64,000 nt of DNA from Nereocystis luetkeana (lineage: Eukaryota; Sar; Phaeophyceae; Laminariales; Laminariaceae), in NCBI GenBank assembly GCA_031213475.1, contig JARUPZ010000016.1, positions 9,564,270 through 9,628,269 of the forward strand. The letters are read 5' to 3'. A model generated the notes under the pieces. That model was not told where the DNA came from. It was given only the letters and a program-made list of their open reading frames with translations, and searched no databases. Below, piece by piece: positions 1 through 63,569 of the stretch. Position 1 is the first letter of the stretch; every line of letters starts with the position of its first letter. Made by a program: the position numbers and the translations under genes.

Positions 1-1990
1 ATCAAGTGGAAGTAAGACTATGACAAATATAAGTACGTTTATTTAAACAGTTACTGCTGTGTAGCGGTAAATTCAAATATGAATGTATCGTTATCGTGTA
101 CGATAGCACGAGGTATACGCCATACGTACAATTTGCACACCTCGGATAACGTAACACTCGGATAACATGGGGCCTAACACAGGAACGTGGTAACGTACAT
201 ACCAAAATAGTGTTAGCACTGGAGGAGCGATCGCGGTAACGCGGTAACACAGTGTTGACTGGGAACACACGAGCGTGCACACACCTTAACCTTGTGTTGC
301 TGCTCGATCTCGTCCAGCTCTGGTACAGTAACATTATGATATGCCCGTGATCAGTCCCTAACACTGCTGTAACGCAGTGTTAGGCTTTGACCAAACGCGT
401 GCGTTGTCACTCTAACATGCCCAGATCGATATCCTCATATTTACTATTAACAAGACGATACTATAATGTTCCTGTCGACGCAGCGTTAGACATAACACAC
501 TAACACACGTAGTGTTACCCTCAGGAGGAATGTTGTACTTAACAACATAACGCTACCATGTTCGCCAGGGCTACTAACAGTACGTTATCTGGACCCCCCG
601 TCTGATTGCCTCAGGTTCGGATAACGTATCACTAAACGTGCGTTAGATACGTTACAGTCTTAGCTTGCCCATACGTACCAATGTGTTAGAATGTTAGCCT
701 ATACCAGGTATGCGGAAGTCTCTCTAATATTATGTTACGGTGATACCGTCAGTAAAGATATGGGGGGGTAACATTCCGTTATATACCGTGTTACCATAAG
801 AATCAATCCTGGTCTAACATTATATTACTGGGTTACCGTTGGGGCCGAAGTCGTTCTGACGTAGTGTTACAACGTTACCCTTTGGATCTTCCCGAGATCT
901 AACACGTGTTTCCTGTGTTATTAATAGTTAGTGGTAAAGCGGCGTGTGGGAGTAACATGACGTAGCCGTGTTATCCAATTCCGCTGACATCCCAGTAGGG
1001 GATACCTACAAAAAAATACCCGAGGGGGGAGGATAGCATGGCATCCCCTAAAAAACGCCTCCATATTTAAACCCCCTAAACAGGGGATATTTAGGAGAGA
1101 TCCCCGCAAAAAAACGCCCAATTTTTCACTGTAAACCCCGCCAGTACGTTATCCATCTACAATGTAATCTGCGCACTCGTACGTACGAGCTAACACGACA
1201 GTAACCTATTGTTGATGTTAGATTGGGGGTGTACGTTCTCTGTTAACCTCACTACGTACATTGCATACGAGCTAACACATTAATGAACATGAAGCTATTA
1301 ATAGTGTGTTATCGATATTTTACGTTAGTCGTTCGGCGTACGTTATGGCAGCAAGACTAAGACTTCCGTTAACACCCTCTCGTAACGTCGCTCGATACTA
1401 CGGACTGCTGCTGCGGCTGATACCGTAACATAATGTTGACGTTGTATTGACCATATATAGACGTCATCCCTCTAACGTCTGTTACGATAGCCACTAGGAA
1501 TTCCACTAACACACTAACATACCGGTAGATATTAATAGTGTTATGTACGGGTTTGTTTGGCCGTGTACGTTATCGTATAAAGGATATTACGGTAGAAAGT
1601 AAGAATCCCGCTAATACACCAACATATCGTTATTTGCTACGGACTGATGTCGCTAACACGGTAACCTAATGCTAACGTTTAATTGACCGTGTACGTTATC
1701 CCTTCAACGTGTGTTACGATAGCCACAAGGAATTCTGCTAACACGCTAACATAGTGTTACTCGCTATGGGCTCCATACCCTAACACCGTAACACATATAC
1801 TGCGGTCAGTACGGGATCAAGGTAACACTCTAACATTACGTTACGCGATCGCCCGCCAATATCGTAACACACCAACACTATTTTATCACAAAATCCAGAA
1901 AGTTGTCAACGTAGTAACATAACGTTACGGGGTTTTTTCGCTGACGCCTAACATGAACATAAAAAACGTTAAGTGTTACGTTACCCAAGG
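1..1990. repeat. Degenerate TAACA/TGTTA-rich satellite-like region
   Basis: This AT-richer stretch has no credible coding sequence. The words TAAC and GTTA recur about every 20 bases on both strands. Longer blocks repeat at roughly 235-bp spacing: the word GTTACGATAGCCAC occurs near 1480 and again near 1717, each followed by an AGGAATTC-like word and paired CTAACA words. This is seen in the sequence. A decayed tandem satellite with a monomer near 235 bp is my inference. It may continue beyond the left edge. Confidence 0.55.
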
Positions 1991-2315
1991 GGTGCAATTT
2001 TTACCTCGTATCGTTCTAGCATCGGGGTATATATTATCGTATTGTCGTCCATATTTGCGGAACAAAAAAACGCGGCAACAAGATAGTGGCTTATTGTCCT
2101 CGCCGCTATATCAGGGGCCACTATCTTAGGGGTGAGATAGTGGCGAGAGTCCCCTTTATGTTGGATTTTCACATCTTGGGAACTTTAGTGGACTAACATT
2201 GGTTTCCATACGGGGTGTGCACCCATTGCGTTTGGCATCATGTTGCTGAGATGAAGATGAAACAGCCACAAACCACAAAGTGGTACCATAACGTCCGGTC
2301 CTAGTGGAGGTGTCA

Positions 2316-2688
2316 ACACCTCGGACAGATGATGATCTCTGCTGCACCGAGATCGTACAGATCAGTATGTTGGGACACACCGGTACCGATTATGTATATA
2401 GATCCTGCATATTCAACAGATCATCCCGTGGAAACGTATGCAGCTCACGAAGACGGTATCCGTACCAGAGTACAATGAATGTGCTCACAAACCCTAGTGC
2501 ACGAAATGCTACAATTATTAATAGTAACACGGCCACATCCTGCGGCGGAAAAGGCACAGATCGTTCAGACCCCTTCGGATCAGCCCCGTGGAAATATGTA
2601 CCAGGTACAGATTATGCAGATCCATGAATATGGTCTGTGTGGTCTGTGTGACCTGTAGATAAATCTGATCGGTCCGACGTGTGGAGGT
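2316..2688. mobile_element. GATC-rich inverted-repeat element (MITE-like), copy 1
   Basis: The left end reads ACACCTCGGACAGATGATG and the right end carries the inverse, GATCGGTCCGACGTGTGG. The interior is rich in AGATC words. Related copies lie near 10635-10880, 43572-43837 and 60443-60740, with more diverged ones near 6720-7038, 38012-38280 and 50395-50545. It encodes nothing visible. A non-autonomous DNA transposon is the simplest reading. Confidence 0.5.
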
Positions 2689-2732
2689 TTCGTGTGGAAC
2701 TCGCAGCCTACCTCGACATCTTGGCACGTAAT

Positions 2733-2925
2733 CCAAAATATAAAATCCTGGAACTGTTATTGTATACCAGGTACCAGGTATCTCGTACCTGGTACGTACG
2801 AAAATACATACGTGTACGCGCTAATCCAAAATATCAAATCCTGGAACTGTTATTTTATATCAGGTATCTCGTACAGGTATCTCGTACCTGGTACGTACGA
2901 AAATACATACCGGTACGCGCCCTCC
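2733..2925. repeat. Tandem duplication, unit about 94 bp
   Basis: Two adjacent copies share the block from AAAATAT-AAATCCTGGAACTG through a CGTACGAAAATACATAC segment. Both contain TACCTGGTA words, and copy 1 has an extra overlapping pair of TACCAGGTA. The copies differ around those words. Non-coding. Confidence 0.7.
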
Positions 2926-3558: not shown

Positions 3559-3585
3559 CGCGTACGTACGTACGTACGTACGTAC
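3559..3585. repeat. (CGTA)n microsatellite
   Basis: A short run of CGTA repeats lies just upstream of the first recognised MUS81 exon, in the presumed intron. Between 2926 and 3680 I see no exon I can assign. Confidence 0.8.
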
Positions 3586-6600: not shown

Positions 6601-7977
6601 TTCTCGTTTAATTCACCCTCAGGGGAAATGGTTGAAGTTATTTGTGGCTGGTGCCCCCCAACGGCGTGCGATCCTTGACCCGGACACGGTTGAGAAAGTT
6701 GCACATATCTGGCAGATCAGATAGGATCATATAATATCCTCACTCAATGATCTAGATCTTCCAGAGAAGATAGACATGCCCCTGGTCTGTATGACCTAGC
6801 TCGTCTTGCCCGGTGGGAGCCGTATAATCTGCGTGATCTGCTTACACTGTACCAGGTATGACCTAGCTCGTCTTGCCCGGTGGGAGCCGTATAATCTGCG
6901 TGATCTGCTTACAAGGTTGGAACTGTACTGTACAGATCCTGCACTACATTTCATAACGGCAGGCTAGGATCTAGATTGTGTAGGTCATGATCTATCTGTA
7001 GATCGTGATATATCTGTACATGATCTGTCCGACGAGTGGAAGTTTGGTGGCAAGACTCGCGACCTTTGTCGCTGAAACGTGCTCTCTAAATCGCGCACTC
7101 CCCTGCGCCCTCACACCGCGACAGGTACGACGAGCAAAAGCGACGCCTCAAGCTCAGCGGCCTCCGGCGCCGCATCTACCTCGTCGAGGGAAACCTCAGC
7201 CACCAGAACAAGCTCCCGCCCGCCACCCTCCGCACGGCCCTGGCCTCGTCGCAGGCCTCGGGAGGGCTTGCCGTAGTGCGATGCGCTAACCTCCCCGAGA
7301 GTGTAGCCTTCCTCGCTCGAACACACCACCACATAGCTTCACTCCTTGCGGAAGCGTGTGCTCCTCGACGCGGTTTGTGGCCTGGGAACGAGTCCGCCGA
7401 AGCCTCGGCAGGGAGTGTGTGCGCGGCTGCGGTGTATGGAGGCGGTGGGGGGGGGGGCGGGGGGGAGCGAGGTTATGGTGGGAGGGGGGCTCTGTTGCGC
7501 CCCGCGATGACATACGGGGAGTACGTGCAAGACTGCGCGAAACGCGCGAAAAGCACCACCGTGCGGCGGGTGTGGGGCGCGATGGTGCGGCAGGTACCTG
7601 GGTGCAGCGCGGCGAGAGCGGAGGCGATCGTCCGAAGGTTCGATTCCCCCCTCGGGTTTCTGTTGGCCCTCGAGCGCGAGGCGGAGGACGGCGGGGGGGG
7701 ACCGGGTACGACAACGACAGAAGGGCGGCGAGATTGCGGCCACGCCGAGAGAACGAAGAGAGGCGAGGAGTTGCTGGCGGGGTTATCGTGCAGCGGGGGG
7801 GCTGGGACAAACAAGCTCCCGCAGCCGCTGAGGCGGCTGTTGTGTCGGCTGTTCGTCGGAGAGAGCGAGCGTGCTCCCGAGGGGGGTGGACTGGGGGATG
7901 ATGCGGCGAGGTTAGAGTCGGAGGAAGAGGACAGCGAGTGGGGTATAGAACCGATGAGTCAAGATGACCCGTATTGA
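3681..7977 (+). CDS. MUS81: MUS81 crossover-junction endonuclease, catalytic subunit (5' end not found)
   Basis: MUS81 with an EME partner cuts branched DNA such as 3' flaps, stalled forks and nicked Holliday junctions in the nucleus. Exons: 3681-4353, 5386-5552, 7125-7977. Exon 1 follows a pyrimidine tract and CCCGCAG, and opens with the N-terminal helix-hairpin-helix (VKRAMKSVKLYPLPI, then EGVGPFIARRML). It ends in the ERCC4-type nuclease fold (LLVVDNREHE). Exon 2 continues with LPLGDMLWVAR and the catalytic IVERKTASDLASSIVDGR. Exon 3 carries KRRLKLSGLRRRIYLVEG and the C-terminal HhH region (VPGCSAARAEAIVRRFDSP), ending in TGA at 7975. Phases join cleanly, and the split codon at DGR/YDEQ matches the family. 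The initiator exon is not identified. A glycine-rich insert (around 7435-7490) and a Ser/Arg/Gly-rich linker (3840-4290) are low complexity. I see no winged-helix domain in the linker, where family members usually have one. Confidence 0.9.
5132..5149. repeat. (CTG)n microsatellite in MUS81 intron
   Basis: Short CTG run in the first recognised MUS81 intron (4354-5385). The same intron holds a G-run of about 22 at 4850-4871 and a GAG run near 5221-5240. Nothing else is assignable there. Confidence 0.8.
6792..6912. repeat. Tandem duplication in MUS81 intron, with and without TACCAGGTA
   Basis: A block of about 58 bp starting TATGACCTAGCTCG is present twice, 65 bp apart, in the intron 5553-7124. 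The upstream copy begins CTGTATGACC and the downstream copy CTGTACCAGGTATGACC. They differ at the junction by exactly the 7 bases CCAGGTA after TA. Confidence 0.9.
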
Positions 7978-10880: not shown

Positions 10881-11500
10881 TGATGCGCGCGGCAGTGCGA
10901 GAACGACACACTCCCTCCGCGCGTGTCGAACAGCTAGCTAGCTCCTTACGTTCCACCTCGGACACCCCCCCCCCCCCCCCCCCCCCCCCGCCCCCCCCGA
11001 CCCCAGCAACCCCCGGCTGCTTCGAGCGGCCGAATGCTACCCCCAGCAACCCCCGGCTGCTTCGAGCTGCCGAACGCTATCATACTGCTGCTGTTGTGGT
11101 CGAAATTTGTGCCCCGACACCTCTTCCCTCTGAGGTCTCAAAACGGTTTGGCAACCCTCTTTAGGACTGCCCTCCCGTTGTGGGGACGAAACGCTTGAAA
11201 CTAGAGTCAGATATAGGTTCCCGCAGAGAGCTCCACTAAAAAGCGTAACCGCGCCTTCGGGACGAAACATCACTCTTACGGCAGGCAGGCCGACACTCGT
11301 CCCCTTATCCTTCTCAAATCCCCCAAGAGGCCAGCGCGTGTTTCGCTACCTGGTACAATAAAAAAAGAAATGTGGTACACAGCCACGCTTGCGAAGCCAG
11401 CAGGGGGGCAGACGGATTTTGTGACCGCCCGAAAAGTAAGCGGCGTCACAGACAGCCGTCAGTTGCCGTGCCAGCAGAGAGGCACACCAAGGGGAGGAAT

Positions 11501-15200: not shown

Positions 15201-17573
15201 ATCGAAATCCCGATATTTCGATATATAGAAAGTCCAACATATGGAAACTTTCGATACGATATCCAACACAAGGCCTCACCTTCTCGGGGTCCTCGAACAC
15301 GTCCGGAAGGCGCATGGCCACGTACGGGGAGGTCCCGACGTAGTGCCCCTTCGGCACCGTGTAGCTCCGGCCCTTGGAATTCACGGTGAAGTCCTTCTTC
15401 GCCATGCGGAGGAGGAGAACCTTCGAAGAAGTTTCGCGGGGCAGGGAGCGAGCGGCAAGGCGGGGGGGGCGTGGGGTAGTATCGCATACCGATAAGAGAA
15501 CACCAGTACTGTATGTAGTGCTTACGACTCCGCGCAGCCTCGAAAACGGTTGACAGCCCACACTGCTGTTGGGTGTACTCGTGAAATCGGTGTCGAGATG
15601 GATATGAAACGGTAAGAAGGGATACGTAGAGAGAACAGGCGTGTCTATCTGTATTTCTCTTTGATGCTTCAGAGCACCACGAGGTGCCGATCAGGCACTC
15701 CATAGCGACACGAAATAATACGTGTACACGTACGTACCTTCGGAGTCCTAGCAATATGGGCATCCATGCATCAGCACCCATTCTACAAACCAATTCATGA
15801 ACACCCATTCTATAAAAACCCATCCCGGCCCAGTCCTTCACACCAGAGTCAGTGCTGAACATGGTTGACAGTCCGGTTCATTCCGAGAATTTTCCCGGGC
15901 GGTCGGGATTGGGGATACGATATAGGTTGGAAAAAATGGGCTCGTAGTCTTAATTAACCCTCTTACTATTACGAGGGACCATAGTAAATAGGACCTACCT
16001 GGTATGATGTAACACAAAAAATCTAGATATTTACCTACTTTTACTAAAAATAGTAGGTCCCCTATTCACTATGGTCTCTCTTATTACTGCGAAAATGACT
16101 CCGCGCCAACTCCAAGTAGTTTATCCCCCTACATCGTGGGTGCAGCTCAAAAAGGGTCCAACTCAAGCATAGTCCTATTGAGTTCGTCCATGTCGTGGGC
16201 CATAGCAGCCAAAATATATACAGTGAGTGGCGAGCAGTCGGGAGCAAGACACCAAGAACGAGACGCACCAGAGGCGGGTACATGCGGAGGGTCTCGCGCA
16301 TGCAGTTGTGCAGAAGGTCCATCTCGCCCAGGTGCTCCCAAGTAAGTGGCGTGTCTGGGTCCTTGAGGACCGTCTGCTGCTCTTCCAGGAGCCGGGCCAG
16401 CAACTTGGGGTCCCTGAGAAAACCCGGGTTTCGAAGTTTCAAGGGCGTTTCGGGTAGAGGTGGCAGGTGGGAAGGTTGGCAACGGGAGTGAGCTTGTTTG
16501 GTTTGTCAGACGGATAAATGGAAGTGCCAATTCTCGCAACCGGTTTTCAAATGAAAGAGGGCCGGTAGTCTAGGCAAACCAATACTACTACGAAAACTGG
16601 GTTTCCTAGCAAGGCATGAAACGTTGGAAGCCGGCATTCGTCTAACGTCACCGGCTACTTGACTTGAACAGGTTTAGGTTTGCATTTGCTGGTGGCGATT
16701 TCAAATATGGGCGTGTACACGTGCACACTTTACGAGTACCGCCGGTTTATATGTTGGCGTTGCTGTGGTATAAACATGTCTAAAGCTTCGACGCTACTCG
16801 CAGGCAGATGCACCACAACGTTTGCGCATCGCCGATAACCCATAAGGCTGCCCCAACAGCACACCCGTGACTGCCAACGACCTCTATAACCTGCCAACAA
16901 TCCAACTGAAACCCAAGGCAGATAACGGAAACACAACAAGGTGCGAAACGCCTACATAGTGACGTGGAAACCCTGACGACGAGGGGAAGGACAGGCTCCA
17001 ATCCATTCTACTCGCAACTATTTCGGCATGAGTGGTCGTTGTAAGATACTGAAAGTAGCCTAATTGGGCTGATTTTCGAGCATCGCAGCAAAATTGTAGA
17101 ACGATTGGGGGGGAAACTAGGGAGCGTATTTGCCCAGCATGATCATTTTCCAGTAAAAACACACAAAAACAACAAACCAAACAGCAGAATGGATGAAGAG
17201 TCTAGGGGGGAACAACAAACCATCAATCGACAAGCAGCACAGCACCCCCACTTCGTGCCGCTTTTCGTTACCTGGAGGCGAGGAGAGAAGTCCACGTGGA
17301 AGTGATGGAGGAAGTGTGCTGGCCGGCGAAGAGGAGCGCGATGAGCAAGCCCACGATCTGGTCGTCCGTGTTAACGGTGCTGTCCTTGTACTTCATGTCG
17401 ACGAAAACCTGTGCCGATTACCGCCCGCGTGTTTCCAGGTTCGTCAGCATGAGCGAAGCAATGAGAGGCTGATGTACCTACCGCCACATATACACTGCCT
17501 TCATGCCCAAGGACTCACGACTTTAAGATAACGTGATCACAAAGATGACAACAACAACAACAACAACAACACC

Positions 17574-41300: not shown

Positions 41301-44300
41301 TTAATATAGAACTCCTCAATCAAGGACGGACCCTCAGAACTTTCTCAGAAAATTGCAGATGCACCTCTACCGTGGCATGGGCCTACTGTCCCCAACAAGG
41401 TGGTTGCAGTTGCAGGCAGGGCGCGCGTGCTACGGTAGGAGTGGCAACTAAGGATCTCTACACCGTGTACCAGGTACCTGGTATATATATATATATAAAA
41501 ATATAACACGCAAAAGAACACAACCACCCCTGCTGGGATAAATTTCACAGCCCACTTTTCTCCAAAGCCAGGGGGGGGCAGGCGGCGCACACAACGAGAT
41601 ATTTATTTCGACGCCTCGCTCGGGGTTTGCACTCTCCCTCCCGTTGTCGCGGAAACCGGCTTCCGGATTCCGCCCGAGGAAGTGTGTTATCCTACCTGGT
41701 ACCTGGTATGTATCACCCGTGTGATGGTGCCATTCTATTCGGGAAACCTCCACCCGACAGGCTACGCTTTGAATATTTGTTTAGCTCAGCCCCCGTGCAG
41801 TATCCCATTGGGCTACAGATCATGAGACTCTAACGATTTGGATAGTTCACATCATCGGGTCCGAAGAGGCGCAATGGTTGGGTAACTCCTTAGTTGAGGC
41901 GCCCCGTCAGTCACAAACGGTTTGGGCTCGAAAGTGCAACCCCTCATTGCGGCTCCTCTACCGTAACGCGGCTCACTGTAACCCCTAGTTGCAACCCCCC
42001 TACCGTAGCACGGCTCGTTGCAACCCCTAATTGCAACCCCTCTACCATAGCGCGGCTCACTGCCACCCCTATTTGCAACCCCTACGGTAGCACTGCTCAC
42101 TACACCCCCCAATTGGAATTCCTCCCGTAGCACGGCTGACTGCAACCTCTAATTGCAATCCCTACCGTATAGTGGCTCACGGCAGCCCCTAATTGCAACC
42201 CCTACCGTATAGTGACTCTCTGCATCCCCTAATTGCAACCCCTACCGTACCGCGGCCCACTGCAACCCCTAATCGCGACCCCTACCGTAACGCGGCTCAC
42301 TGCAACCCCAAATCGCGACCCCTACCGCAGCACTGCTCACTACACCCCCTTATTGCAACTCCTCCCGTAACGTGGCTCACTGCAACCCCAATTGTAACCC
42401 TACCACAGCGTGGCTCACTGCAACTCCTAGTCGCAACCCCTACCGTAGCGCGGTTCACTGCAACCCCTAATTGTAAACCCTACCGTAGAGTGGCTCACTG
42501 AAACCCCTACTGTAGCACAGCTCCTTGCAGTCCCTAATGGAAACCCCTACCGTAGCACAGCTCCCTGCAACCCCTAATTGCAATCCCTACCGCATAGTGG
42601 CTCACCGCAACCCCTAAGTGCAATCCCTACGGTATAGTGGCTCACTGCAACCCCTAATTAACCTCTACCGTAGCACGCCTCGGAGGTTTAATTTTAGTTT
42701 TATCCCCCGGTCCACCGGAGGATCAAAGAGATTTTTCACAAACTCAAACGCGTTTTGGGTGCACGCACGCACGGGTAACAGGTGAAGGGCGCTAAGTTCA
42801 CCGAGGAAGACATTGCCGCGCTCACTCACCGCATTCAGTTCGGGGGCGACGAGGTGGTCCAGGCGAAGGACGGGGCCGGGTCGGCCACTCTTTCGATGGT
42901 AAGTAGTACGCCAACTGTTGTTGGTGGTGGTGGTGGTGGTGGTGCTTGTGATGGTGGTAGTTGGTGGTGATACTATTGTGGTGTTGGTGGTGTTGGTGGT
43001 GGTACTTCCTGTTGTTGTCGTCGTTGGTGTTGTTGGCGTCGTCATTGTTGTCGCTGCTGTCGTTGTATTTACAGCTCATGACAACCTCCTGCACTCGGCG
43101 AGAGTTGTATGCTTGGGTACGGCTTGGTGGTGGTATTGGTCGTTGTTCTTGTCGTTGTTATCGTTATTGCTGTTGTGTGTACTAGCTCGTGACCAGCTCC
43201 TGCGCTCGGCGAAGGCTGTATGCGTTACCCTTACAAAATTGCAGTCCCGTTTTGGGGACAAGCCATTTAAATTCCAAGAAGTTTGCCCCCCATGGTGAGA
43301 CTGCAGTGCTAGAAAAGGGTCGAGTACGACTCGGTCCAGCTTGAACGATATGGTTGACGTATACTAATACTTGACATTAACCTTTTACTGTAGTACTGCA
43401 CTGGACATAAACCTCAATCTTACCCTACTCTAGTTCCAACCATTTCGTCCCCACACAACGGGAGGACAGCCCTAAAGACCTAAACGGCTTAAACACTATT
43501 ACCCGTCGCCCTAGCCGCGACCGCCTGGCGAGAAACATCGCAATGAGGATGTAAGGAGGAGTTAATATGTTCACACCTCGAACAGATCATCTACATATCA
43601 TGATCTACCTATTTGCGCGAGATCATCTAGTTCCTCTCGTCCCGTTGTGAGAGGTTGTGTAGGATCTGCGTAGTACAGATCCAACCCAGGAAACACGGGC
43701 TAGATAGATCATGTAGATTATACGGGTCCCACCCGGTAACATGATGAGCTAGATCATACAGATCGTACAATATCGGGAATCAATCTGTGTTGAATTATCT
43801 AGACCATGAAATGGGAATCGATTATCTCCCGAGGTGTTTTTCCTCCAGAAGACGATGAGCCGTGACGTTTCCCTCCATAGTTGCCGTCGCGATCCACGTC
43901 CTGCACCTCACGGCGCTTCGCACTTGGTGCGAGCAATGTCTGCCTGGTCGGAAGAAACCCACAGTATACTCCGTCCCAGCGTTTGTTGGGATGCGAGAAG
44001 GGTCTATGGTCATACGACTACAGCCATGCATGGCGTGAGTACACCCCCCCCCCTCGCGCCTCCTCCCCGCGCTTCTACCGCAGGCGCACGCTGGGGCTTA
44101 CTTCGCGGGCAGGGTGCTCGACGGGCTGAACGGCGTGAAGAATGTGAAGGAATGCACGTTCGTTGACTGCGACCTCACCGACGCGCCTTTCTTCGCCTCT
44201 CCGGTGAGACAGTGATCATGTTGTGAGCATATAGTTGGCGTTACGTGTTCGGGAAGCGGGGACGAAAGGACGAGCTACAACCTCAGCGAACGACTCCCTT

Positions 44301-47194: not shown

Positions 47195-50100
47195 TCAGCA
47201 GAATAGGAATGTGTTCTTGGCGGAGCCCAGCATGTGCCCCGCGCGGTCCTCGCCGACGATGCGCTCCAAGCTGAGGCGCTCGAACCTTGTGAAGAGGGAC
47301 AAGCATGTCACCGCCGCCACAGATTCAGCCTCCTGCGGCCCGACATAAACAGGAGGGGGAGACGAAGACGATGGCGGGGCTGTGTGGAGTCAAGCCTTTT
47401 CGCCGAGATAACTCTTGGGACATCAACCCTTTATACTATTGCGGAGGACCATAGTAAATAGGACCGAACATTGTTAGTACGAAATAGCAAAATATGTAAG
47501 TTTTTGTATGGACCGTAGGTTCTACCTGGTATTTAATATGGTCCCCCGTAATAACTACTGCACTGTGCAGAACACACGTATTTCACTCTACTTCTCAAGT
47601 AGTTTGCCCCAAAAACGAGAATGCAGTCCAAAAGGTGTTAATATTGTTCGTGTTCGAATATGTGTTTGTATCGGTGGCCGCATCCGCCATGTATTAACCC
47701 CCTTTGGCACTGCGCCCACGTTTTGGGGACAAAACTACTTGGGCTTAGGCTCATTCTTATCGGAGAGCTTTTTCTCCAGAATTTCCAAAGTCTGGAAATA
47801 TTTGGACATATGTATCAAGATACGGAGGCGTTCTGTCACTTTTCGTGAAATTCTCCAGAAGCAAAAAAATAAGGTTTGTTCAATTACACATATTTGGAAA
47901 AAACAATCAGAAAAACCTGGAAGATTAAAAATTTGCGCCAAAAAAACATGGAAACTATGGGGGAAAAGCTCTCCGCTAAAAATGACCTTAGAGTGGACCA
48001 TATTTTTCCGGTATAAAGTTAAGAAACGCATGTCACGGTAGGGAGGTAGCAGCTATATTTTTCCGAGGCTCCTCGCTTGACTCGAGTATGAAGCACAGCC
48101 CCTCGAACAAGAATTAACCTGATAAGAATAAGAACATGAAGCTTCCCACTGCGGGGGGCGCTAAGAAAATTGGACTAAGAAATAGTGTTCGGCGGCGAGC
48201 GCTACACTAAACCCTACCAGGTACCTGGTATACAATAGTACCCTATGCTCAAAGGTTGTTCAAAGAGGGTATCACGGCAAAAGGTTCTAAGGGTTAACTC
48301 CATTTGTTCCTAGCTGTTTTTTGTTGGCGGGCCCACACTGAAATCAACCACAAAAGGTTCGCAGGGCCGACTTCTGATCTTGCTCGCATGACGGCAGTTC
48401 ACAGTTCACGGAAATGTTACACCATATTGGCACTGCTCGTGAGTGCGTACGACCGTACAGATATTTGTGATACGGCGGTGATGATCGTGGCGACGATGAT
48501 GATCTATCGCTCCTATCGCTCACGGCTACAGCAGCAAGACATTCCAGCCCGTGGTCACAAGGCATTAGGCAGAGGCTCAACGCCCCAGAGCGGGCAAAAC
48601 CATCGTTGTATCTACGAGAAATTGCTGCGTACCGTACTCGTAGAACGTACACGCGGAGATGACTATTCGGAGAAAAGTACCCTGTACCCCATACACAATA
48701 AACACCCGGAGGGTATTGGTACATCACATGGGTCCATGTATGAAACACATTTTTTTGCGGAAACAAAGCTTTCTCTTCGGGCCGCCGCCGGTCTTCCCTC
48801 AAGCTCTCTAGCTGCGTGGCACGCAGGGGAGGCCGCGTGTACACCCAAAACACTTGACCTCGAGAAAAAATCAAACCGCAACCCCCTCGACAAACCCAGG
48901 CATGGGATAGGAACTCGATTATAGGTCTGAGTGGAGCGGATAGGGGTTCGAACGAACAACCTATGAATCAAGAAATCCCACCTCGAGGAGGTTGACCATT
49001 TCGGGGTAGAACTGGGGGCACTCGGGCAAGGAGTAGAAGATCAGGTGGTGGATGCCGCGGATGCAGTAGCGATTAAAGAAGTGGGCGCGCCCCGTGTAGA
49101 GGAGCAGCTCGCGGTCACCCCTGAAGAACCTCGCTCGAGACCTAGCCACCTTCCACAAACACATACACACACACGTTTTTTTCGATACAGACGGAGAGGC
49201 GGGGAGAACAGGAAACGGTTTCGGTTAAACGTGTCATGTATTTTCACCGAAACAACAAACAAACGTTTTGCGCACTTACTGATGAATTTCCATCGAGCAG
49301 TCGTGGTCGAGGAATGCGTTGAAAACGAAAAAAAAGGCACGCAAGCGACTTGAACCAGAAAGCTGACCGACAGGTCCAGCGATTTTCACGCGGAACTTTG
49401 CGAAACATCACTGGGGGGGGGGGGGTGTACTCACTTGTTGCTTGCCTTAGTAATTTGACCATTGACCACGCATCCTTTTCGAGACGGAGCACCGTTCCTA
49501 CTTCCTACTCCTGATAGAGACACCTCCAACGTTTGGGCGCTCAATACGTCGTTTCCATACATTTTGTAGAAACGTTTTCCTAATTGTATCCGCTTCCTGT
49601 TTTCGCCACCTATGGCCACCATCAATCTCCTAGGATAGCGATAGTTTTCTCGGCATCTAGTGTATCCCACTCCTCCACGTCGCATTCGTCTATTTCCCTC
49701 ATGCCCTCTTCTAGCGCATCCCGTTCCTCCTTGCACGATTCACAATTCTCCTAACATGTGAGTTATACTCTCTGTTGCGAGTAGTTCTACGATAGAGGTA
49801 GCACATTTCCGCTATTTTGTTTCTGAAAGACGGGTTCCTTGAGCCCAAATCGTCGGAATGTCAAATCTTGATTTCGAAAAAAAAAACGTTTTGTAGACTC
49901 GGGCCATGGGATTATTCGCCGCGATGCATTTAAATTTTTGCTGAAGTCAGTTTTCAGAAGAGGTAAGGAGCTCCTCAAGTGAGGAGCCTCAGAAAAATTA
50001 ATGTGAACCTCTATCGTGGAACGCCTCTTGCTCTGCCACACGGACAGGGCAGGAGGTAGGGGTACTCGATATCATGCATGGCCGTAGTCGTATGACCATA

Positions 50101-53100: not shown

Positions 53101-54563
53101 GCCACGCCCGTCTGCGGTCTTGCCCGCACGCGCGAGGAGGAGGAGGTCGTCGTCTTTATCGGTGCCGAAGTCTTCGACTGCGGGGTCGGCTCCGGCGTCG
53201 TCGAAGCCGTCCTCCTGGTCTGACGACCCTTGGGTTTCGCTGGGCGTCGAATCGAGTCCGTCGCTTTCTTCGTCCATCGCTTGGCGTTCCTCTTCGTCCA
53301 AGGCGTTTTTTCCGCCTTCCTCCTGCTGGTTGCCGTCCCCTTCCTCTTCTTCGTCGTCCTCCTCGTCACCCTCATCTTCGACGGCGCTGCTGCCGCTGTC
53401 GCTGCTGTCGCTGTCGCCCTCGTCCCGCCCCTCCCTTTGCAAACGCCTCGCTACAACGGCAGCAGCAAGGTCCCTGTCCCCGCCGCCCGCCGCAGACAGT
53501 CTCGAGCTGCCCACCTCCAGCGCAGACAGCAGCTTCTTGTAGCTCAAGAGGCCCGCATCAAACCCTCCGCTTGCCTCCTCCGCTTTCGCCCCCGCCTCCT
53601 CCTCCTCCTCCCCTCCCCCCCTTGCTTGCCCCCTGCCTCCCTCGTCGCTGCTGTAGTAGAGGGCGTCCCTGCCGTCGGATTGGGCAGGGCGCTTGCTGCG
53701 CGACCTTTTTCTTCTTTGTGCTCGTGGCGTGGCCGCCAGCGCCTTCGCCGGCTCCTCGTTGGGTTGGCTCATGCGATGCCGTTGATCGCGGTCTTTGGCC
53801 CTGTTGAGCTCTAGAATCTTCACTCGGCGCCTGCGGTCTTGGGTCTCCTGTCGTAGGGAGGGGGCGGTCGAGGGTGGGCGGAGAAGCGAAGTTGGCGGAG
53901 GGTGTGAGGCGTGGGGGGCAAGCGTCGCTGCTATCACACGAGTACAAGGAGGGATGGAGAGGTGCCGCAGAAATCATGCATGCCTGGTCTATGTACATGA
54001 AAGGATGAAGTTGCGTTTTGGACTGGCTCCGGTGTTTACGGGTGCCACATACCTGGTGCAAGCAGAGGCAGCTGAAAAGCGGCAAAAACAGGGGTATCAT
54101 ACTGTTAATACGAGTACTGCTGTACAGCACTGCCGCCGTACCATGTACGAAATACAGGTACTGCTGTGTGTCACAAGTCACAAGGAGTACCAGGTACGAT
54201 GGGAGTAAGGCTAGATCGCTTTGGGACCGCATATCCTACGATATAAACGCCAAGTTGAATGATACAACGGTGAACTACGGACATAGGCGAACGACGCTAA
54301 TCGAATCACTGTCCAGGACAGTCGACCACTTCCACCCGTTAGTGGTGGTATCCCACGCACGAGGCTGCGCCGAGACCCAATACGAGACTGAGCCCGAGAC
54401 CGACCTGGGTCAACCGTGGTTTCTTCTTCCTTGGCTGGTCGTCGTCCGCGCGTGCTGCGTTCTCATCACCCCATTTCGAGGCACCCCCTGCGCGCGGCTT
54501 GCCCTTGCCACCTTTGCCTTTTTTGTTAGACTTCCCCTTCGGCCCTTTCCCACGGTTTCCCAT
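47195..54563 (-). CDS. UTP25: UTP25, U3 small-subunit processome component (DEAD-like fold)
   Basis: UTP25 (vertebrate DIEXF/Def) belongs to the nucleolar SSU processome that makes 18S rRNA. It has a helicase-like fold without canonical ATPase motifs. Six minus-strand exons: 54563-54405, 53847-51718, 51364-51248, 50786-50571, 49149-48982, 47332-47195. They sum to 2928 nt, or 975 aa, and every junction is phase 0. Exon 1 is Gly/Lys-rich (MGNRGKGPKGKSNKKGKGGK). Exon 2 has a long acidic Ser/Asp/Glu region, then PKVLILLPFRGLAHEVVEIM, RLYCDFYNSDIVIASPVAL, DRADVFLMQNWAYVPDL and RQTLVFSTYQ. Later exons give DPNLNALVSKQLRN, IPSYFDYVRARNHL, ELLLYTGRAHFFNRYCIRG, HHLIFYSLPECPQFYPEMVN and the terminal LFTRFERLSLERIVG...NTFLFC. 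All are diagnostic of the family. Divergent from the sigma-factor gene. Confidence 0.96.
47436..47554. mobile_element. MITE, CTATTACGGGGG family, copy carrying TACCTGGTA
   Basis: About 119 bp in UTP25 intron 5. Left CTATTGCGGAGGACCATAGT, right ATGGTCCCCCGTAATA. Near the right arm it reads GGTTCTACCTGGTATTTAAT where the copy at 14406 reads GGTCCTATTAAC, a 7-bp insertion at TA. A fold-back element (about 47551-47641) abuts it. Confidence 0.8.
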
Positions 54564-54912: not shown

Positions 54913-57900
54913 ATGCGGCTAACAAGCCTGCATGCAACCGTGCTGGGCCTCACTGCAGCCCAAGCGGGCAGCGTGGAGTGGACTAGAAGGAGGGGAGGGG
55001 GTGCGAGAGACGGGACCGCTTTCGTGGCCTGTCTCAGCCCAAACACTTGCGTGCGGCGGGAGAGGGATGACGGTTGGTCGCTCCCGCAGGGGCGAAGACA
55101 TCTGCATCGACCACGCTCCTCGTCAGGAGGACGAGGGGAACTGTCGATGAAGGACGTTCGAGTGGTGCGAGCACCGGAGTTCGTCGGGGCAAGACTCCGC
55201 AATGCGGCTGGGGGGAAGGGGTCTCTCGCTCGCTCGCCGAAGGCTTACTGGGTGAAGAGTCGGATGGGACTGGACGGGGAGGACATGTCTTTCGATGACC
55301 TTGCCGAGGCGATGATCACGACCGATAAGACGCTGGGGGTAAGCAAGGAAAATCGTCTGGCGAGGGCCAAGAGCTTGCGCCATTTTCCTCTTGAGGTGAG
55401 TGTGGGAGAGCCAACATGATCTCGTCAAACGTCGAAAGAACATGAAAACATGACGAGATGGCCACGATCGCGATGGCGCCGTCCGGAGTTCAGCGCTCAG
55501 TCGCTCGATGGCGGTGCGGTGCTGCGCGGTGCGCTTCGCCTAGGCAGTCACGAAGCTGAAAAACAAATCCGTTGAGGGGGCAAAGCCGGGTTGGTTTGCG
55601 TCTTGAGACCAGCTTTCCGCAATACCTGTGGCACCAATTTTCCCAAATTCCCAAGTACAGATACTCGTACGTAGTCAACATCCGCCGTCGTCCGAGCTTG
55701 AGGTCAAGCTTGAAGTGCGCCTATATACCCGGCTGTCCAACCACCAAGGGCAAAGGCAGGCTGCGATTCTGCGATGCGTTTTTTGTTTGTGCAGAACGAA
55801 GGCCCAAGGTTTGTGTCCCTGATGTGATGTTCTGTCTTTGTGCGTGTGGAGTTTTGGATTGAAGTGTGAAGGTTGCTGCGCTGGGCACAGACGAATTATG
55901 ACGAACCAGGGGGTCAGACCTTTCTGTCAGCTCTTATTATTTAATACGGAGTACCATGGTAATATTTTACGACAGCAGCAGTTGTTTACTGTTGGTTTAA
56001 ACAGTAAAGTATCGTATGCATACTCGTACTACCGGTATGTACCTGTCGTCATGTCGTGAAATACGAGTACGAGTACGTGTACTCGTATACAAGTTCGAGT
56101 ATTCACATACCAGGTACCTGGTAAATAGATGTAGATCAAAATCTAAGAACAAACCCAGAACAAATTCTGCACACCCCGGACAGCTCATGAGCTAGCTCAT
56201 CTATCGTGTGTAGCTCAAGCTTCGAAAACATGTGCGGATGAGCTACCGCCTATAGCTCAAGCGGGGGGAAACATGTGTAGCTCATGAAGCTCGTATAGCT
56301 CATCTCGGGGGCAGATGAGCTAGCCCATGTAGCTCCTATGGCTCACTGCAGGACATATATGTTCAGATGAGCTATCGTGTACCTGGTATAGCTCAAGCTT
56401 TAAAAACATGTGCGGATGAGCTACCGCCTATAGCTCAAGCCGAGGGAAACATGTGTAGCTCATGTAGCTCGTATAGCTCATCTCGGGGGCAGATAAGCTA
56501 GCTCACGTAGCTCCTATAGCTCAGCCTGGGAAAATGTGTGTAAATGAGCTATCTTCTACCAGGTATAGCTCAAGCCTTCAAAACATGAGCAGAGGAGCTA
56601 CCACCTATAGCTCAAGCGTTGAAAGTATAAGTATGTGCAGATGAGCTACCGCCTATAGCTCAAGCCGTCAAAACACGTGCAGACGAGCTACCGCCTATAT
56701 CTCAAGCAGGGAAAACACGCGCAGATGAGCTATTGCCTATAGCTCACCCCAGGAGAACGTAACCAAAAATCATGCACACAGTTCATTGTAGCTCTTTCTC
56801 GGCAACACATGCGAGTAAGATGAGTGGCTAAAAAGCCCACCCTCCGGGACTAGTACGTATGAATAGGAATAATATGGGTTGTACAGCTTACCATGCGTAC
56901 TTGATTTCAACGCGGTACGAGCAACAGCTTTAAGATTCACTAAGATGACAAAAATGTTGATATCATTTTTATAGCATATATTCGAGCGCCTTGTGGTATG
57001 GATGGTGACGGCTGACAGCTGCTGTAGACGATAATTCAGATTATGTTGGGTGTCGACCTATTTATCGTTGGCTTGGTAGGTGGTCCGCGTGCCTATCAAG
57101 ATCAATTTCGCGGGTTCAAGTCCCACCGAGTGCATGCTCGTAAGGGCTTTTTCTTGCATGAAAGAAATTGATTAGCGGAAAGCGCGAGAGCGTGAGTTAG
57201 CTACCTTCGATGAAAATCGACGAGCAGTGGGAGCGCTGAACCCTATGCGCGATAAAAAATAAAGGCACGTACCGGGGGGGAGAAGGGTGGACACCTGTGA
57301 CCACGGCTTGTCCAGAAGGTCGTCGAGGGTAAAACCTCCTACGAGTTAGGCTGGAAAGTGGAAGTGATATTAAAAAAAAAAAAAAAAAAATCGGAACAAA
57401 AACAGATCCGATCTCATATAAGATCACATACTACTGCTGTACCTGGTATGTACAAGTATATATGGTTGTTTGTATTGATATCTTCTGCGTACGTGTATTG
57501 GCCACAAAAACGATATCAACTATAAATTTGGGGCTTAGACCTATGCCAATGGAAACGCGAAGTCCAAAAGTTTTTTTTCAAACATACCAGGTATTGCTTT
57601 AAAAAAACAGTCGAAAATTTCCTCGTACCGCCGTTGTGGGAAAAAAGAGAAAAAGGGTTTGATTTTTTTTTTCCCCCCAACGGCTGCAGGCGGCGCAATT
57701 TGTTTTTTCTGCTTGGAAATTGTCAACACGCTGATAGAAACCAGCTCGTGCGACGGTCGACGCTCGATCTCAACATCGACACAGCCCACGGGCAACCCGC
57801 TCGGTGTCCGGCAAGGCCAACGAATATAGATGACGGCCTCGAAGATATCGGGTGGGTCCATGGTCTAGGGGGCGAGAGCTTGCCGGCGGCGTCCTACGGT

Positions 57901-58663: not shown

Positions 58664-58732
<69 letters not shown>

Positions 58733-61700
58733 TAGTATGGTAGTGGTAGTGGTAGTGGTAGTGGTAGTGGTAGTGGTAGTGGTAGTGGTAGTGGTAGTAG
58801 CAGTAGCAATAGTAGTTGTTGTTGTTGCTGTAGTACAAGGGTGAACTTGTACTGAAGTGAAAGTTCTCGCTTATACCAACGTAAGTAAAACAGACAAATC
58901 TAGAGTCTAAAGCATAGTACGTACGTAGATCGATCCGATTTATATACCCGGTGCACCAATAGCGCCCCCCGAGGTCACGTCAATGTGCCTGTTGCCAGTT
59001 CGTTCGTTTGAAGTCGGCGGCGTGACCGTCAGCCTATCACGGTTTCACCGCTGCGCGTGGAAGCATCGCACAAGCCCCACACCGCCGCCGTTGCTATGGC
59101 AAACCATCGTTGTTTATCGTGTTTTTTTGTGTCAACGCAGCGGAGCCCCAATCTCCTGACGAAGACTGAGGAGATACAGCTCGGGAGGAAGGTGCAGGAG
59201 CTCTTGCGATGGGAACGAGTTCGAAGTTTTCTGGAGGTGAGTCACGCCGTGAGGGAGGGGTGCAGTAGTGCCGGCTGCCGCTGTATAGAATAGCGCCGGT
59301 GTGATGTGCGCCAGCCAACAACACCGCCCTTGTAGTGCCGACCGGCACTAACGTGCTCGGACCGAAGGCCAAATAGAGTGTTCCATTCGTGCCAATCGAT
59401 TTGACGGCACTACAGCGGGCAACCGGCACTACGCAAGCGGTACTATCGAGGAACCACTATTACGGGGGAGATGTACTCGATAGGAGAGATGTACTCGACC
59501 TCATGCATGGCCGTAGTCGTCTGACCATAGACCCTCGCATCCCTACAATGCCGGGACGGGGCATGTCGGGTTTTCACCGACCAGGCAGACATTGCTTGCA
59601 CCAAGCGCGAAGCGCCGTGAGGTGTCCGGCGAGTCGCATGAAGGGTGAGCTGCATCCTACTATTAATAAGAATCGCTTGTGACGCGGACTTGCATATGGA
59701 TGACAACTTCAATGAGTTGATTTAATTTCCGGTGTAGGCAATTCCAGAGACAGCAATGGGAGTACTATGTAACTGCCTCTTGGGTGCCTTACCTTGAACA
59801 CTAGGTGATACGATCATTCCCACTTGTGCACGGGGGGGGGCATATTAAATAGGACCTAAGGCACACACAAACAACTACATGTTTCGTTATTTTTTCTATC
59901 AAGATTGGTCCTATTAACTATGGTCCCCCGCAATACTGTATTCCTGGCATAGTTTTACTACTCGTATACTGCTGGGCGCCCACACCTACCATCCGGACGG
60001 GTGCTTAGATCGGATTTCTCGTGCTAGTCGCGGTGTAGTCAGTAGCTGGCCTCCAAAGGGGTTTGTATATATGTATACAAGGTATACCTTCGGAGGCGTT
60101 CGGACGTGGGGTGAGGGGGGAGGCACGCTGAGATCCCGATGACGTTTTCGTGCAGCCTGAAAAATTGAAAGCTCCACCAGCTGTTGAATTTTTTAAAAAC
60201 CTGTCTGTAGAGCCCAAAAAAAAAGGAAACCGCTGGCCGCGCACGACTCTTTTCACTACTTCGGAATGTATCCCACACTAAGTCCTAGTAGTTTGTCTCC
60301 AAAAACGTGGGTGGCGGAAACCGTGGAAAACGACACCGATTGATTTGTATACCCCAACGATCCTTACATTTACATCGATAGTGGGGTACGTGCGACGTTT
60401 TTCACTATTGCAAAATCTATCCCAACACTAATTAACACCTCTAACAGATCAGATGGATCACGATCTATCTATCGATCTATAGTACGGATGATCTAGTTCC
60501 TCGCCTGCCGTTGTGAGCGGTTGTTGTGCAGGGTCTGCCTTTTAGGGCAGATCCAACCCAGGAAACATGTGCTACAGTAGATCGTGCAGGTTATACGGGT
60601 CCCACTCGGCAACATGAGCTAGATCATACAGATCATGCAGATCAGGGATCTATCTATGTTGCTCTGAATTATATAGATTATGAAGTAGGAATAGTCTGCT
60701 TATAATCTGTACACGATATGTCGATGATCTCTCCGAGGTGTGCAGTAATTCCAAGTAGCTCTTGTCCCAAAAACGTGGGTGACCGAAAACCGTGGAAAAC
60801 GACGCCTATTGGTTACCATGCTTTTTTTTTATTTGTTGCCGTTAACCTCCATCTCAACGCGCCGCAAATCTCGCCGCACCGGGAAAAATCGCTACCGACT
60901 GTCGACTATGCATCGTGACTGGGAACTTTTGAAGACGAGGTTGGGCAGGCCGCCGACGATGGAAGAGTGGGCGGTAGAGCTCGCCGCGCTCGACGGCGCG
61001 GAGGAGATAGAGCGGGAGCTCAAGATAATGAGGGAGGCGAGGGAAAGGATGATCTCGTGCAACCTCAGGCTGGTTTTGCACATCGCCCGGAAGAGCTTTT
61101 ACTCCGGGGGGTCGGGCGGGCTCAAGGTGTGTTGAATACCTGGTATTTATAGTCGTTTTTGTAGCGGAAGGGGGGAGGGGACGGGAGTTGTTTTGTTTTC
61201 ATGTCATGCATGGCCGTAGTCGTCTGATCATAGCTCTAGGAGGAGCAGGAGGTTGGACGGGGGGGGGGGAGGGGTACTCATTATCATGCATGGCCCTAGG
61301 TTTATGACCACAGACCCTCGTATCCCTACAATGCCGGGACGGAGCACGTCGGGTTTCACCGACCAGGCAGACGTTGTATGTTGACGTTTTTTGGCGGGGG
61401 AGGGGGCGCGGGCTCAAGGTATGTTGGCGGTAGAAAGCGGGTGCTCAGGGCGTGTTCGCGTTTTTAGGCGGGGCGCAGGGGGGGGGGTGGGTGTACTCGA
61501 TAGGAGAGATGTACTCGATCTCATGCATGGCCGTAGTCGTATGACCATAGACCCTCGCATCCCTACAATGCGGGGACGGGGCATGTCGGGTTTTCACTGA
61601 CCAGGCAGACATTGCTTGCACCAAGCGCGAGGCGCCGTGAGGTGTCCGGCGAGTCGCATGAAGGGTGAGCTGCATCCTACTAAGAACCGCTTTTGTGAGG

Positions 61701-63569
61701 CGAACCTGCATATGGATGACAGCTTCAATGAGTTGATTTAATTTCCGGTGTAGGCGCTTCCAGAGACAGAGACAGTAATGGGAGTACTATATAACTGCCT
61801 CGTGGGTGCCTCACCTTAAACACTGCGTGATACGATCATTCCCACTCGTACGGAGTAAAGGTTATTTACCTCGCACAAATGATCTAACCTGACGACCAGC
61901 TGTGGGCGACCGCCAAGAAAAAAAAAAAACAACGGTACCCTGGTTGTCTAGCTCACGTAGTGAGCGGCAGGTTTTACTGTGTCGTTGCCAACCGACGCCA
62001 ACCCAACGGGCGCGGGGGGGGGGGGGGGGGGGGGAAGCAAAAGTGATGATGTTTTGGGGCGCGGGGGGAGGTGGAGGGGGGGCTCAAGGGTCGTTGACGT
62101 TTTTTAGCGGGGGGGGTGGGGGGTTCAAGGTGTGTCGGTGTTTTGTGGCGAGGGGGGGGGGGGGTCTCAAGCGGTGTTGCCGTTTTGTAGCGAGGAGAGG
62201 AAGAGCTCAAGGTGTGTTTGGCGTTTTTTTAGTGGGGCGGACGGGGGGGGGGGGGGGGGGGGTACTCGATGTTGTGCATGGTCGTAGTCGTATCACCATA
62301 GACCCTCGCGCCCCTACAATGCCGGGACGGAGCACGTCGGGGAAGGGGCTCAAGGTGTGTTTGTCCTTTTGTAGTTCGGAGAATAGAGGGCTCAAGGTGC
62401 GTTGGGAGTTCGTAGCGCGCGGGGGGGGGGGAGGGGGGGGGGGAGGTGCCAGAAGATGAAGAGAAAAACGATTGGTGTTTCGATACGTTGAAAGCTTCGA
62501 TTCTACAGTATATCCCAACACTATTAGTGTAGTATTCATGCTGTGATCGTTCGTTTCTACAGTATGTAACACTTTTAGTACCAGGTATAATAGTACTCAT
62601 GCTTGTGTGTTGTTGGTTCATTTTTTCATTTTGACTGTCTCCAGGTTGGGCTGGACGACATGATCCAGGATGGCACGGCTGGGCTGGTGAAGGCGGTAGA
62701 GAGATTCAACCCGGAAAAGGTGCGACGGCAGAGCTTCACCATCATGGGAAGCCCACCGCTTCTCCTTTGTAACCCTACCCACAGTACTGTTCCGGCGGTC
62801 ATAGCCTAGTTCCTACCATCGTGACAAAGTTGGGTCTTCTTCTCCATAACCCTGTCGGCATTACTGTACCGGTGGTCATGGTCTCATTCGTTGGCGGCAA
62901 GCCACAATATTACAGCGTGTCTTTCGGGTTAGTGCAGTGTCGGTCGTTCGTGAACCTGAAGGCCGCCTACGACGCATGGGCGCGGCATCTTGGGACACTC
63001 TTGTATTGCTTCGCCGTCCCTGCTCTCGCTGGGAAGCTATCAATGGCGCGCATCTTACAGATCATGATCTAGATCATCCAGATCATCGATCGCCACTTCA
63101 TGATCTAGATCTGTCAGGGCAGATACGTGCCTGGATCGCACCACTGGATGTGTGGGGGGTTTTGTAGGGTCCACGAGGTATGCTCACCACGTGGGGCCGA
63201 TGTATGATGATACCACCCAGCTTTCAAAGCTGAGCACGGGCGACTCCATCGGTCGATTTCACGGCTGGGGGTGCCTTTGATATTCGTGTTTATAGCTTTT
63301 TTGTAACCGTCCGATCCTCTCTGGCTCTTTCTCTTTCTCTCCCCCCCCCCCCACAAAAGGGTTTCCGGTTTAGCACGTACGCCTCATGGTGGGTGCACCA
63401 GGGGATACACTTGGGCCTCGCGGAGTCCGGGAGGCTCGTCCGGCTCCCCATGAACATGCACACCATGGTGTGCCGGGTGATTCGCTTGCAGTCCAAGTTG
63501 TTGGAGCAGCTGGGGAGGGACCCTACCGCCGACGAGATCGCGATCGCGAGCGGCCTCGGAGTGGAAAAG
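54913..63569 (+). CDS. Plastid-type RNA polymerase sigma-70 factor (3' end beyond window)
   Basis: Nuclear-encoded sigma factors direct the bacterial-type plastid RNA polymerase to promoters. Five exons seen: 54913-55395, 59141-59236, 60935-61126, 62645-62719, 63360-63569, all joined in phase 0 (352 codons so far). Exon 1 starts at ATG with a signal-peptide-like MRLTSLHATVLGLTAAQA, then a basic stretch with TAFVACLSPN, as expected for plastids reached through the ER. Exon 2: NLLTKTEEIQLGRKVQELLR (region 1.2). Exon 3: LGRPPTMEEWA and NLRLVLHIARKSF (2.1). Exon 4: GLDDMIQDGTAGLVKAVERF (2.2). Exon 5: GFRFSTYASWWVHQGI (2.3-2.4), then QLGRDPTADEIAIASGLG (region 3). A GTGATG donor follows; region 4, the -35 reader, must lie past 64000. 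Exon 3 uses TTGAAG as acceptor with a weak pyrimidine tract. Confidence 0.92.
56175..56775. repeat. Hairpin minisatellite (GAGCTACCGCCTATAGCTCAAG)
   Basis: About ten units of 45-75 bp in sigma-factor intron 1. Each centres on a small inverted repeat GAGCTA...TAGCTC, and many are followed by AAAACATGTGCAGA. Two units carry TACCTGGTA (56381) or TACCAGGTA (56553) exactly at the TA that the other units have empty. Confidence 0.92.
57060..57390 (+). mobile_element. tRNA-derived SINE, plus-strand copy
   Basis: Head with A-box-like TGGCTTGGTAGG (57069-57080) and B-box-like GGGTTCAAGTCCC (57112-57124), body GCGATAAAAAATAAAGGCAC shared with the other copies, and an A-tail of 19 (57372-57390). In sigma-factor intron 1. 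Confidence 0.8.
58064..58340. repeat. Dispersed repeat, copy B
   Basis: Matches 23503-23780 over its whole length, with shared blocks TCGGAGCCCCTAACGA, GGAATCTCGCCGCTTCGAAC and GAGTTTTTCTCAAGCC. In sigma-factor intron 1. Origin unknown. Confidence 0.7.
58641..58812. repeat. (GTA)n and GGTAGT microsatellite
   Basis: About 30 GTA units followed by about ten GTAGTG units. In sigma-factor intron 1. Confidence 0.97.
59473..59825. repeat. 353-bp dispersed repeat, copy 1 (CATGCATGGCCGTAGTCG family)
   Basis: In sigma-factor intron 2. About 90% identical to 61493-61846 in intron 3, from GTACTCGATAGGAGAGATGT to ATACGATCATTCCCAC. Carries TATTAATA at 59661-59668, where the other copy has only TA. Confidence 0.9.
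59829..59936. mobile_element. MITE, CTATTACGGGGG family, copy adjoining the 353-bp repeat
   Basis: Right arm GGTCCTATTAACTATGGTCC is well preserved. The left end is blurred by a G-run, followed by ATATTAAATAGGACC. In sigma-factor intron 2. Confidence 0.7.
60443..60740. mobile_element. GATC-rich inverted-repeat element, good copy
   Basis: Left TTAACACCTCTAACAGATCA, right GATGATCTCTCCGAGGTGTG. The interior aligns with 43572-43837. In sigma-factor intron 2, ending about 195 bp before exon 3. Confidence 0.7.
61120..62425. repeat. Repeated GGGCTCAAGGTGTGTT units in sigma intron 3
   Basis: The last bases of exon 3 and its donor (GGGCTCAAG|GTGTGTTG at 61118-61134) recur in variant form at about 61407, 62079, 62121, 62164, 62198, 62347 and 62389, usually followed by a GTTTTTTAGCGGGG-like segment. 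Long G-runs lie between. Several copies keep a usable CAAG|GTGTGT donor sequence. Confidence 0.85.
61493..61846. repeat. 353-bp dispersed repeat, copy 2
   Basis: In sigma-factor intron 3. The counterpart of 59473-59825. At the site of TATTAATA in copy 1 it reads CATCCTACTAAGAACC. Confidence 0.9.

Follow-up and report, generated by a model that had tools for sequence, protein, structure and literature searches.

Excision scars of transposons are normally too short for counting. Target duplications measure 8 bp in hAT elements and 3 bp (TWA) in PIF/Harbinger elements; the overhangs of Tc1/mariner elements are 2-4 nucleotides (nt) long, and the ends of Mos1/mariner carry CCAGG next to TA. The footprint of Sleeping Beauty is reported as TAC(A/T)GTA (PMC3432063), and it arises from staggered cutting, which creates 3-nt overhangs that end joining then seals (PMC7827188, PMC8151067). 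A 3-nt overhang is reported for both Sleeping Beauty and mariner, and local hopping for Sleeping Beauty (PMC7827188). Here we analyzed a 64,000-nt stretch of the genome of the brown alga Nereocystis luetkeana (contig JARUPZ010000016.1, positions 9,564,270 to 9,628,269; termed the window), in which the 9-bp word TACC(A/T)GGTA (TACCWGGTA) is strongly over-represented. Judged from sequence, each copy is probably the footprint left by excision of a cut-and-paste transposon that is specific for TA and has CC[A/T]GG ends. Like the Sleeping Beauty footprint, the word has TA on both sides, putative terminal element bases between them, a palindromic core and an A or T centre (PMC3432063). Unlike that footprint, its core has 5 rather than 3 nucleotides, its target sites show an extra preference for TA at 7 bp, and neither an element (in 311.5 kb) nor a DDE_3 transposase (in the genome) was found for it. 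By analogy, the scar logic is the already known one of Tc1/mariner; what we find new is the 5-base self-annealing core, the copy number of 10^5 and the 7-bp TA preference. The scar was not found described in the titles and abstract openings of the papers listed by literature searches, which does not establish its absence from print, and the words mariner and Tc1 had zero occurrences in the main text of the brown-alga genome papers checked by word search.

The over-representation of TACC(A/T)GGTA was confirmed and is genome-wide. The window contains exactly 34 copies (16 of TACCAGGTA and 18 of TACCTGGTA) grouped into 27 runs, whereas 0.37-0.91 are expected for both words jointly under Markov orders 0-4. 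An initial annotation of this DNA had given about 34 copies against ~0.5 expected, and both values held; the words it listed are real, but several of its positions were off by 1-13 bases (11343, 15989 and 57427 should read 11347, 15996 and 57440). Among window 9-mers with at least 8 occurrences, the z-score of TACCWGGTA ranked second, behind a C/G homopolymer, and TACCSGGTA (C or G centre) occurred only twice. When 5-bp palindromic cores between TAs were counted with a free centre, CCWGG reached 34 in the window and the runner-up 5; the corresponding values for all such cores in 21 other stretches of the same genome were 65 and 15. The assembly (465,085,209 bases) holds 182,395 copies of TACCWGGTA vs 1,744 copies of the same pattern read backwards, which served as background control, and the enrichment thus held in the genome-wide count that had been proposed as a check. 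Across 25 stretches sampled from the same genome (247.5 kb in total, N excluded), 73 copies were present vs 2.6 expected; four of the 25 had none, and TACCSGGTA numbered 8 vs 2.6 expected. These stretches and the window together form the 311.5-kb sample used below. The centres were balanced (43 A, 56 T), which bears out the A-or-T centre described initially. With a 9-bp scar ~100-fold over background, the 465 Mb would offer a legible fossil record of transposon excision, and a single assembly could reveal how often excision occurs, which targets are chosen, how locally elements hop and what repair produces.

Single, dispersed units accounted for 82 of 90 runs. This distribution bears on the possibility that the word arose by slippage of a tandem heptamer, as in the degenerate (TACNTGG)n arrays of some bacterial metagenome-assembled genomes (MAGs). 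TACCWGG heptamer arrays do exist in bacterial contigs; however, slippage cannot seed the algal scars, because nearly all of these are single and dispersed, and we consider such an origin highly improbable. The bacterial repeats share the TACCWGG unit with the scar but differ from it in forming arrays, which are often degenerate and mostly in one orientation. Such arrays were seen in MAGs of Chitinophaga, Acidimicrobiia, Planctomycetota and others (L010-L049), in 40 stretches vs ~0.03 expected by our own estimate. These 40 stretches, bacterial contigs with three units, were rejected as heptamer arrays, and 9 stretches of viral contigs with two tandem units were rejected as chance matches by appearance.

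Runs with complete 60-base flanks were collapsed to a single TA and matched against the available sequence (window and 21 stretches). An insertion was termed clean when at least one paralogue had exactly TA at the site, was free of gaps within 8 bases of it and matched 11 or more of 16 flank positions. A spanning paralogue was available for 16 of 88 runs, and 11 of the 16 were clean, whereas 243 of 1,012 control TA-N5-TA words had a paralogue and 21 of the 243 were clean (Fisher 5e-8). When only the best paralogue match was used, 6/16 scar runs were clean vs 8/243 controls. Where paralogues lacked the word, the insert was usually 7 bp (CCWGGTA) at one TA, which bears out the clean 7-base insertion proposed in the initial annotation; insertion at TA with TA on both sides is a trait shared with Tc1/mariner footprints. 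Neither the TWA duplication of PIF/Harbinger nor the 8-bp duplication of hAT was present at the scars, where TA only was duplicated and the insert was a constant 7 bp. Two TACCTGGTA scars, at 15996..16004 and 47523..47531, lie at different TAs in two copies of one family of miniature inverted-repeat transposable elements (MITEs). The former is within the copy at 15973-16080 and has empty copies in the window and genome samples; the latter is within a MITE end and also has empty copies. The strict criterion was passed by 5 of 16 spanning paralogues of 47523 but by only 1 of 18 of 15996, the low count being due to small gaps in the flanks. The TACCAGGTA scar at 6850..6858 has an empty paralogue at 60576-60644. 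In a 178-bp tandem array with empty units, the scars at 56380..56388 (TACCTGGTA) and 56557..56565 (TACCAGGTA) occupy the same TA of different units; they are not independent and represent at most one event. A catalogue of insertions and deletions from self-alignment gave little yield.

Half-sites of the word in own-genome stretches were close to background, at 57 on either side vs 44 (left) and 46 (right) expected for heptamers. One-mismatch relatives numbered 127 vs 66 expected, all nine positions showed a surplus, and arithmetic from the mismatch counts gave an average scar divergence of ~6%. A protein-binding or chromatin motif under selection might likewise be a short palindrome that occurs genome-wide and in none of the six Pfam-matched open reading frames (ORFs) of the window. 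Against this explanation stand the clean insertion relative to paralogues, the half-site counts, the decay excess at every position, and the presence of scars within MITEs and tandem repeats; we therefore regard it as very unlikely. The word behaves as a scar, not as a binding motif.

In the mechanism that we propose, an element with CCAGG (or CCTGG) at both ends would enter a TA and duplicate it. Excision would leave the five terminal nucleotides on each flank as 3' overhangs; we infer a 5-nt stagger. Two CCWGG overhangs could then anneal by four G-C pairs, with the central position mismatched (A-A or T-T), and ligation followed by mismatch repair would produce CCAGG or CCTGG flanked by TAs. 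Five-base overhangs with four G-C pairs and a single mismatch would therefore give CC(A/T)GG with a random centre, and repeated events at one TA would give TACCWGGTACCWGGTA. A low-copy mobile element acting over long times could leave >10^5 scars and few or no elements. Joint variants were counted over the 311.5 kb, with words within 300 bp of each other scored as one. TACCWGGTA reached 73 vs 3.05 expected, TACCGGTA 12 vs 5.1 and TACCAGTA/TACTGGTA 23 vs 9.7, and there were 0 joints with both overhangs filled. The 5-bp core was dominant and 3-nt-style joints were rare. As in Mos1/mariner, the terminal CCAGG would adjoin TA. The 3-nt overhang reported for mariner (PMC7827188), unlike the scar, predicts a CCATGG or shorter core, and TACCATGGTA was found 3 times vs 73 for TACCWGGTA. 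In own-genome samples, TACGAGTA and TACAGTA also exceeded expectation.

Several results weigh against an origin by excision from such an element. In the 311.5 kb, which are <0.1% of the genome, no inverted-repeat element was found that has CCWGG ends next to TA; the searches could see elements whose two ends lie on a single stretch with a separation of 40 bp or more (50 bp or more in one search), and one search covered the 70 top-ranked of 140 TA-flanked pairs. PF13358 (DDE_3) had 0 genome matches, while the control matched 3 of 14 genomes; introns could hide the domain from this search, which was run exon by exon with 30 candidates. The blunt 3-nt joint TACCATGGTA (CCATGG core) was rare, yet exceeded the 0.3 expected, and TACCAGGGTA (10 vs 0.9 expected) and TACCTGGGTA (1 vs 0.9) do not follow the simple model. 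A TRT context resembling that of Sleeping Beauty was present at 16% vs 6% per side; however, TRT on both sides at once was not enriched (1 of 96 runs vs 0.9%). Five of the 16 runs with a paralogue were not clean (2765, 2786, L052_782, L055_4322 and L066_9110), and the insertion at 2885 scored as clean only because a tandem duplication shifted the register; when 2885 was dropped, 10/15 were clean (p 3e-7).

The interpretation given initially is therefore partly supported: the data point to excision footprints, but the Tc1/mariner element with CCAGG ends proposed as their source remains putative. The search suggested at that time, for TA-flanked elements with CCAGG or CCTGG termini and a DDE/D transposase, revealed neither the element (in 311.5 kb) nor DDE_3 (in the genome), and membership in Tc1/mariner is not established because both were looked for and neither was found. 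The source element is missing, extinct or rare: its implied density in the sample is below ~1 per 100 kb, vs ~1 scar per 3 kb. This absence would fit a long-lived low-copy mobile element, or extinction after a burst. We give a small chance to a different history, in which TA-bounded elements with CCWGG ends are excised near-obligately or in a programmed manner in the brown-alga life cycle, so that the sequenced genome retains ~180,000 scars but hardly any elements, or in which 7-bp units are inserted without any element. The scars raise the question of the fate of the element behind them, and of whether excision is unusually good in brown algae.

Other searches concerned transposases and element ends. 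PF01359 (Transposase_1) had 0 genome matches, but its control matched nowhere either, and the result is uninformative. A regular-expression search of 274 kb for protein motifs of the Tc1 type gave no match, and Pfam revealed no transposase among 30 window ORFs. The DDE_Tnp_4 (PIF/Harbinger) transposase had 57 genome matches, without shown link to the scars. Its gene exists in at least 7 equal-scoring copies (including L083 and L084), and two copies that were compared lie in segments of >10 kb that are 99.7% identical and whose ends are beyond the compared sequence; the segments may stem from a large element that spread recently. Among 118 half-sites, no convincing shared extension was found. 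The commonest extension was GTA (the TACCAGGGTA variant), in 11 of 118; one repeat occurred three times in L057, and CCTGGTTTATAT was common to L068 and L081. Two pairs that passed the end search were rejected as tandem scars matching each other. A 25-bp piece at L081:2208-2236, TA-CCTGG-15 bp-CCAGG-TA, has the scar core at both ends; we read it as two decayed scars, a tiny element remnant being the alternative.

The sole CCAGG-ended inverted-repeat element of the window (12615-13515, CCAGGGC) was rejected as the source. It is better explained as a hAT-like, non-autonomous element with ends CAGGGCTTTTCGCGGGTCA and an interior rich in GACCC repeats. Its left junction reads TACCAGGGC, so that the scar word might be regarded as an end or target of this element. 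However, an exact 8-bp duplication, ATAAATAC (12607-12614 and 13516-13523), lies directly outside CAGGG...CCCTG, and the TAC at the junction is therefore flank; in addition, apart from the element's own two ends, no terminal inverted repeat match >16/20 was present in the window. A derivation of the word from this element is hardly credible.

Target sites were characterized in 96 runs relative to 4,183 local TAs. The first base outward was A in 6% vs 19.5% of local TAs (non-A, 94% vs 81%), the second was a purine in 70% vs 49%, and YR outward was found in 58% vs 31%. The preferred target of Sleeping Beauty, AYATATRT, resembles this YR signature, although not on both sides at once. An additional TA 7 bp off was present on 27.6% of sides vs 8.7%, and on both sides in 11 of 87 runs, for which the control rate predicts ~1. 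TA was also in excess at 2, 4 and 14 bp (38, 41 and 32 of 174 sides vs 16, 15 and 16), and the 5-mers between the motif and the neighbouring TA were diverse; because of this diversity, the neighbouring TA words are not decayed scars. Neighbouring scar pairs <300 bp apart numbered 25 vs 11 for random TAs in the same stretches. This clustering resembles the local hopping reported for Sleeping Beauty (PMC7827188), and could be partly the result of a shared intergenic bias.

Tandem secondary units made up 9 of 105 events vs ~0.65 expected, with centre combinations AA 3, TT 3 and AT 3. In the window, the overlapping runs noted initially were recovered as runs that share TAs: two scars with a common TA at 2765..2780 (A,A; within a 99-bp tandem duplication), 41468..41483 (A,T; a perfect 16-bp palindrome), 41693..41708 (T,T), 48215..48230 (A,T) and 56108..56123 (A,T), and three consecutive scars at 24397..24419 (T,T,T). 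Such runs, the frequent TA in unit phase at 7 and also 14 bp, the lack of any source element against ~100 scars in 311.5 kb, and zero DDE_3 matches in the genome would all suit direct addition of 7-bp CCWGGTA at TA, whether by templated synthesis, by insertion of a short duplex or by a micro-element that propagates itself, and without any larger element. However, A and T centres are mixed within tandem runs, which a single template would not produce. The 7-bp phase is not unique, because a surplus of TA occurs at 2 and 4 bp as well, and the diverse intervening 5-mers are not decayed copies of a unit. A second scar class of the same genome, which pairs with an extant TA-flanked MITE (see below), also speaks against direct addition. 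We consider direct addition unlikely, and excision of a CCWGG-ended element remains our preferred explanation.

The second class, TATTAATA, serves as an internal positive control. Genome-wide it numbered 93,112 vs 10,689 for the reversed control. In the window it is present at 919, 1296, 1530, 2516, 24149, 24989, 27930, 37379, 41299, 58449 and 59661, mostly with C/G adjoining. The site at 59661..59668 (TA-TTAA-TA) is a clean 6-bp insertion at TA relative to paralogues: the insertion (TTAATA) was seen in 4 of 6 paralogue alignments, among the 14 of 335 alignments listed. Overall, 4 of 7 testable TATTAATA sites were clean vs 29 of 237 other TA-N4-TA words (p 0.007). MITEs of one family, ~100 bp long, bounded by TTACGGGGGACCATAG and flanked by a duplicated TA, are still present, at 14413-14509, 15973-16080, 23119-23216, 32180-32277, 47443-47547 and 59834-59929, and some copies abut via one TA. 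The flanks of 21 MITE ends were counted by hand, two of the 21 being one junction of abutting copies read on both strands; 19 had TA directly outside TTA (or a variant), and 7 had ACTA there. Outward GT was found beside TATTAATA scars on 34 of 118 sides vs 5.5% of all TAs, as at MITE flanks. TATTAATA scars agree with both the TA|TTACGGGGGACC ends and the flanks of the extant TTACGGGGGACC MITE, from whose excision TATTAATA probably arose; this genome therefore shows a TA-inserting element side by side with its likely scar. Second-class joints were TTAA (49 vs 1.9 expected), TTAAA/TTTAA (14 vs 1.3), TTA/TAA (45 vs 27.7) and TTATAA (1 vs 0.15), a spectrum that fits microhomology joining of short overhangs. 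The TTACGGGGGACCATAG MITE resembles the presumed CCWGG source in its TA insertion, its short palindromic scar and its tens of thousands of scars. It differs in that elements are extant (21 ends), the core is TTAA, and TA-microhomology joining is the likely route.

The remaining scars of the window are single words; as for all scars listed here, no strand is assigned. Those with TACCAGGTA are at 702..710, 2599..2607, 23491..23499, 23930..23938, 24592..24600, 40964..40972, 54188..54196, 57585..57593 and 62579..62587. Those with TACCTGGTA are at 2786..2794, 2885..2893 (the tandem-duplicate copy of 2786), 11347..11355, 32409..32417, 41169..41177, 57440..57448 and 61137..61145. The scars at 40964 and 41169 lie within a 443-bp inverted-repeat element (40854-41300).

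The initial annotation had placed none of the words in a recognised exon. This held for the six Pfam-matched ORFs of the window (0 of 34 scars), one of which (HHH_8) is below the Pfam cut-off. Other ORFs of at least 150 amino acids contain 10 of the 34 scars: nine of these are in ORFs without Pfam match, and one (62579) is in an ORF with a sub-threshold match only. Exons are only partly known, and avoidance of coding DNA is therefore only partly assessed. The genes of the window include AIM24, NOP9 (in two pieces) and a lactate/malate dehydrogenase fragment. A long minus-strand ORF at 51499-53937 was assigned by Pfam to UTP25, a protein that by itself marks the window as nuclear DNA from a brown alga or its close kin; it has 23 relatives, including Ectocarpus, Scytosiphon and Sphacelaria proteins at 57-66% identity, and its best relative reaches 73%.

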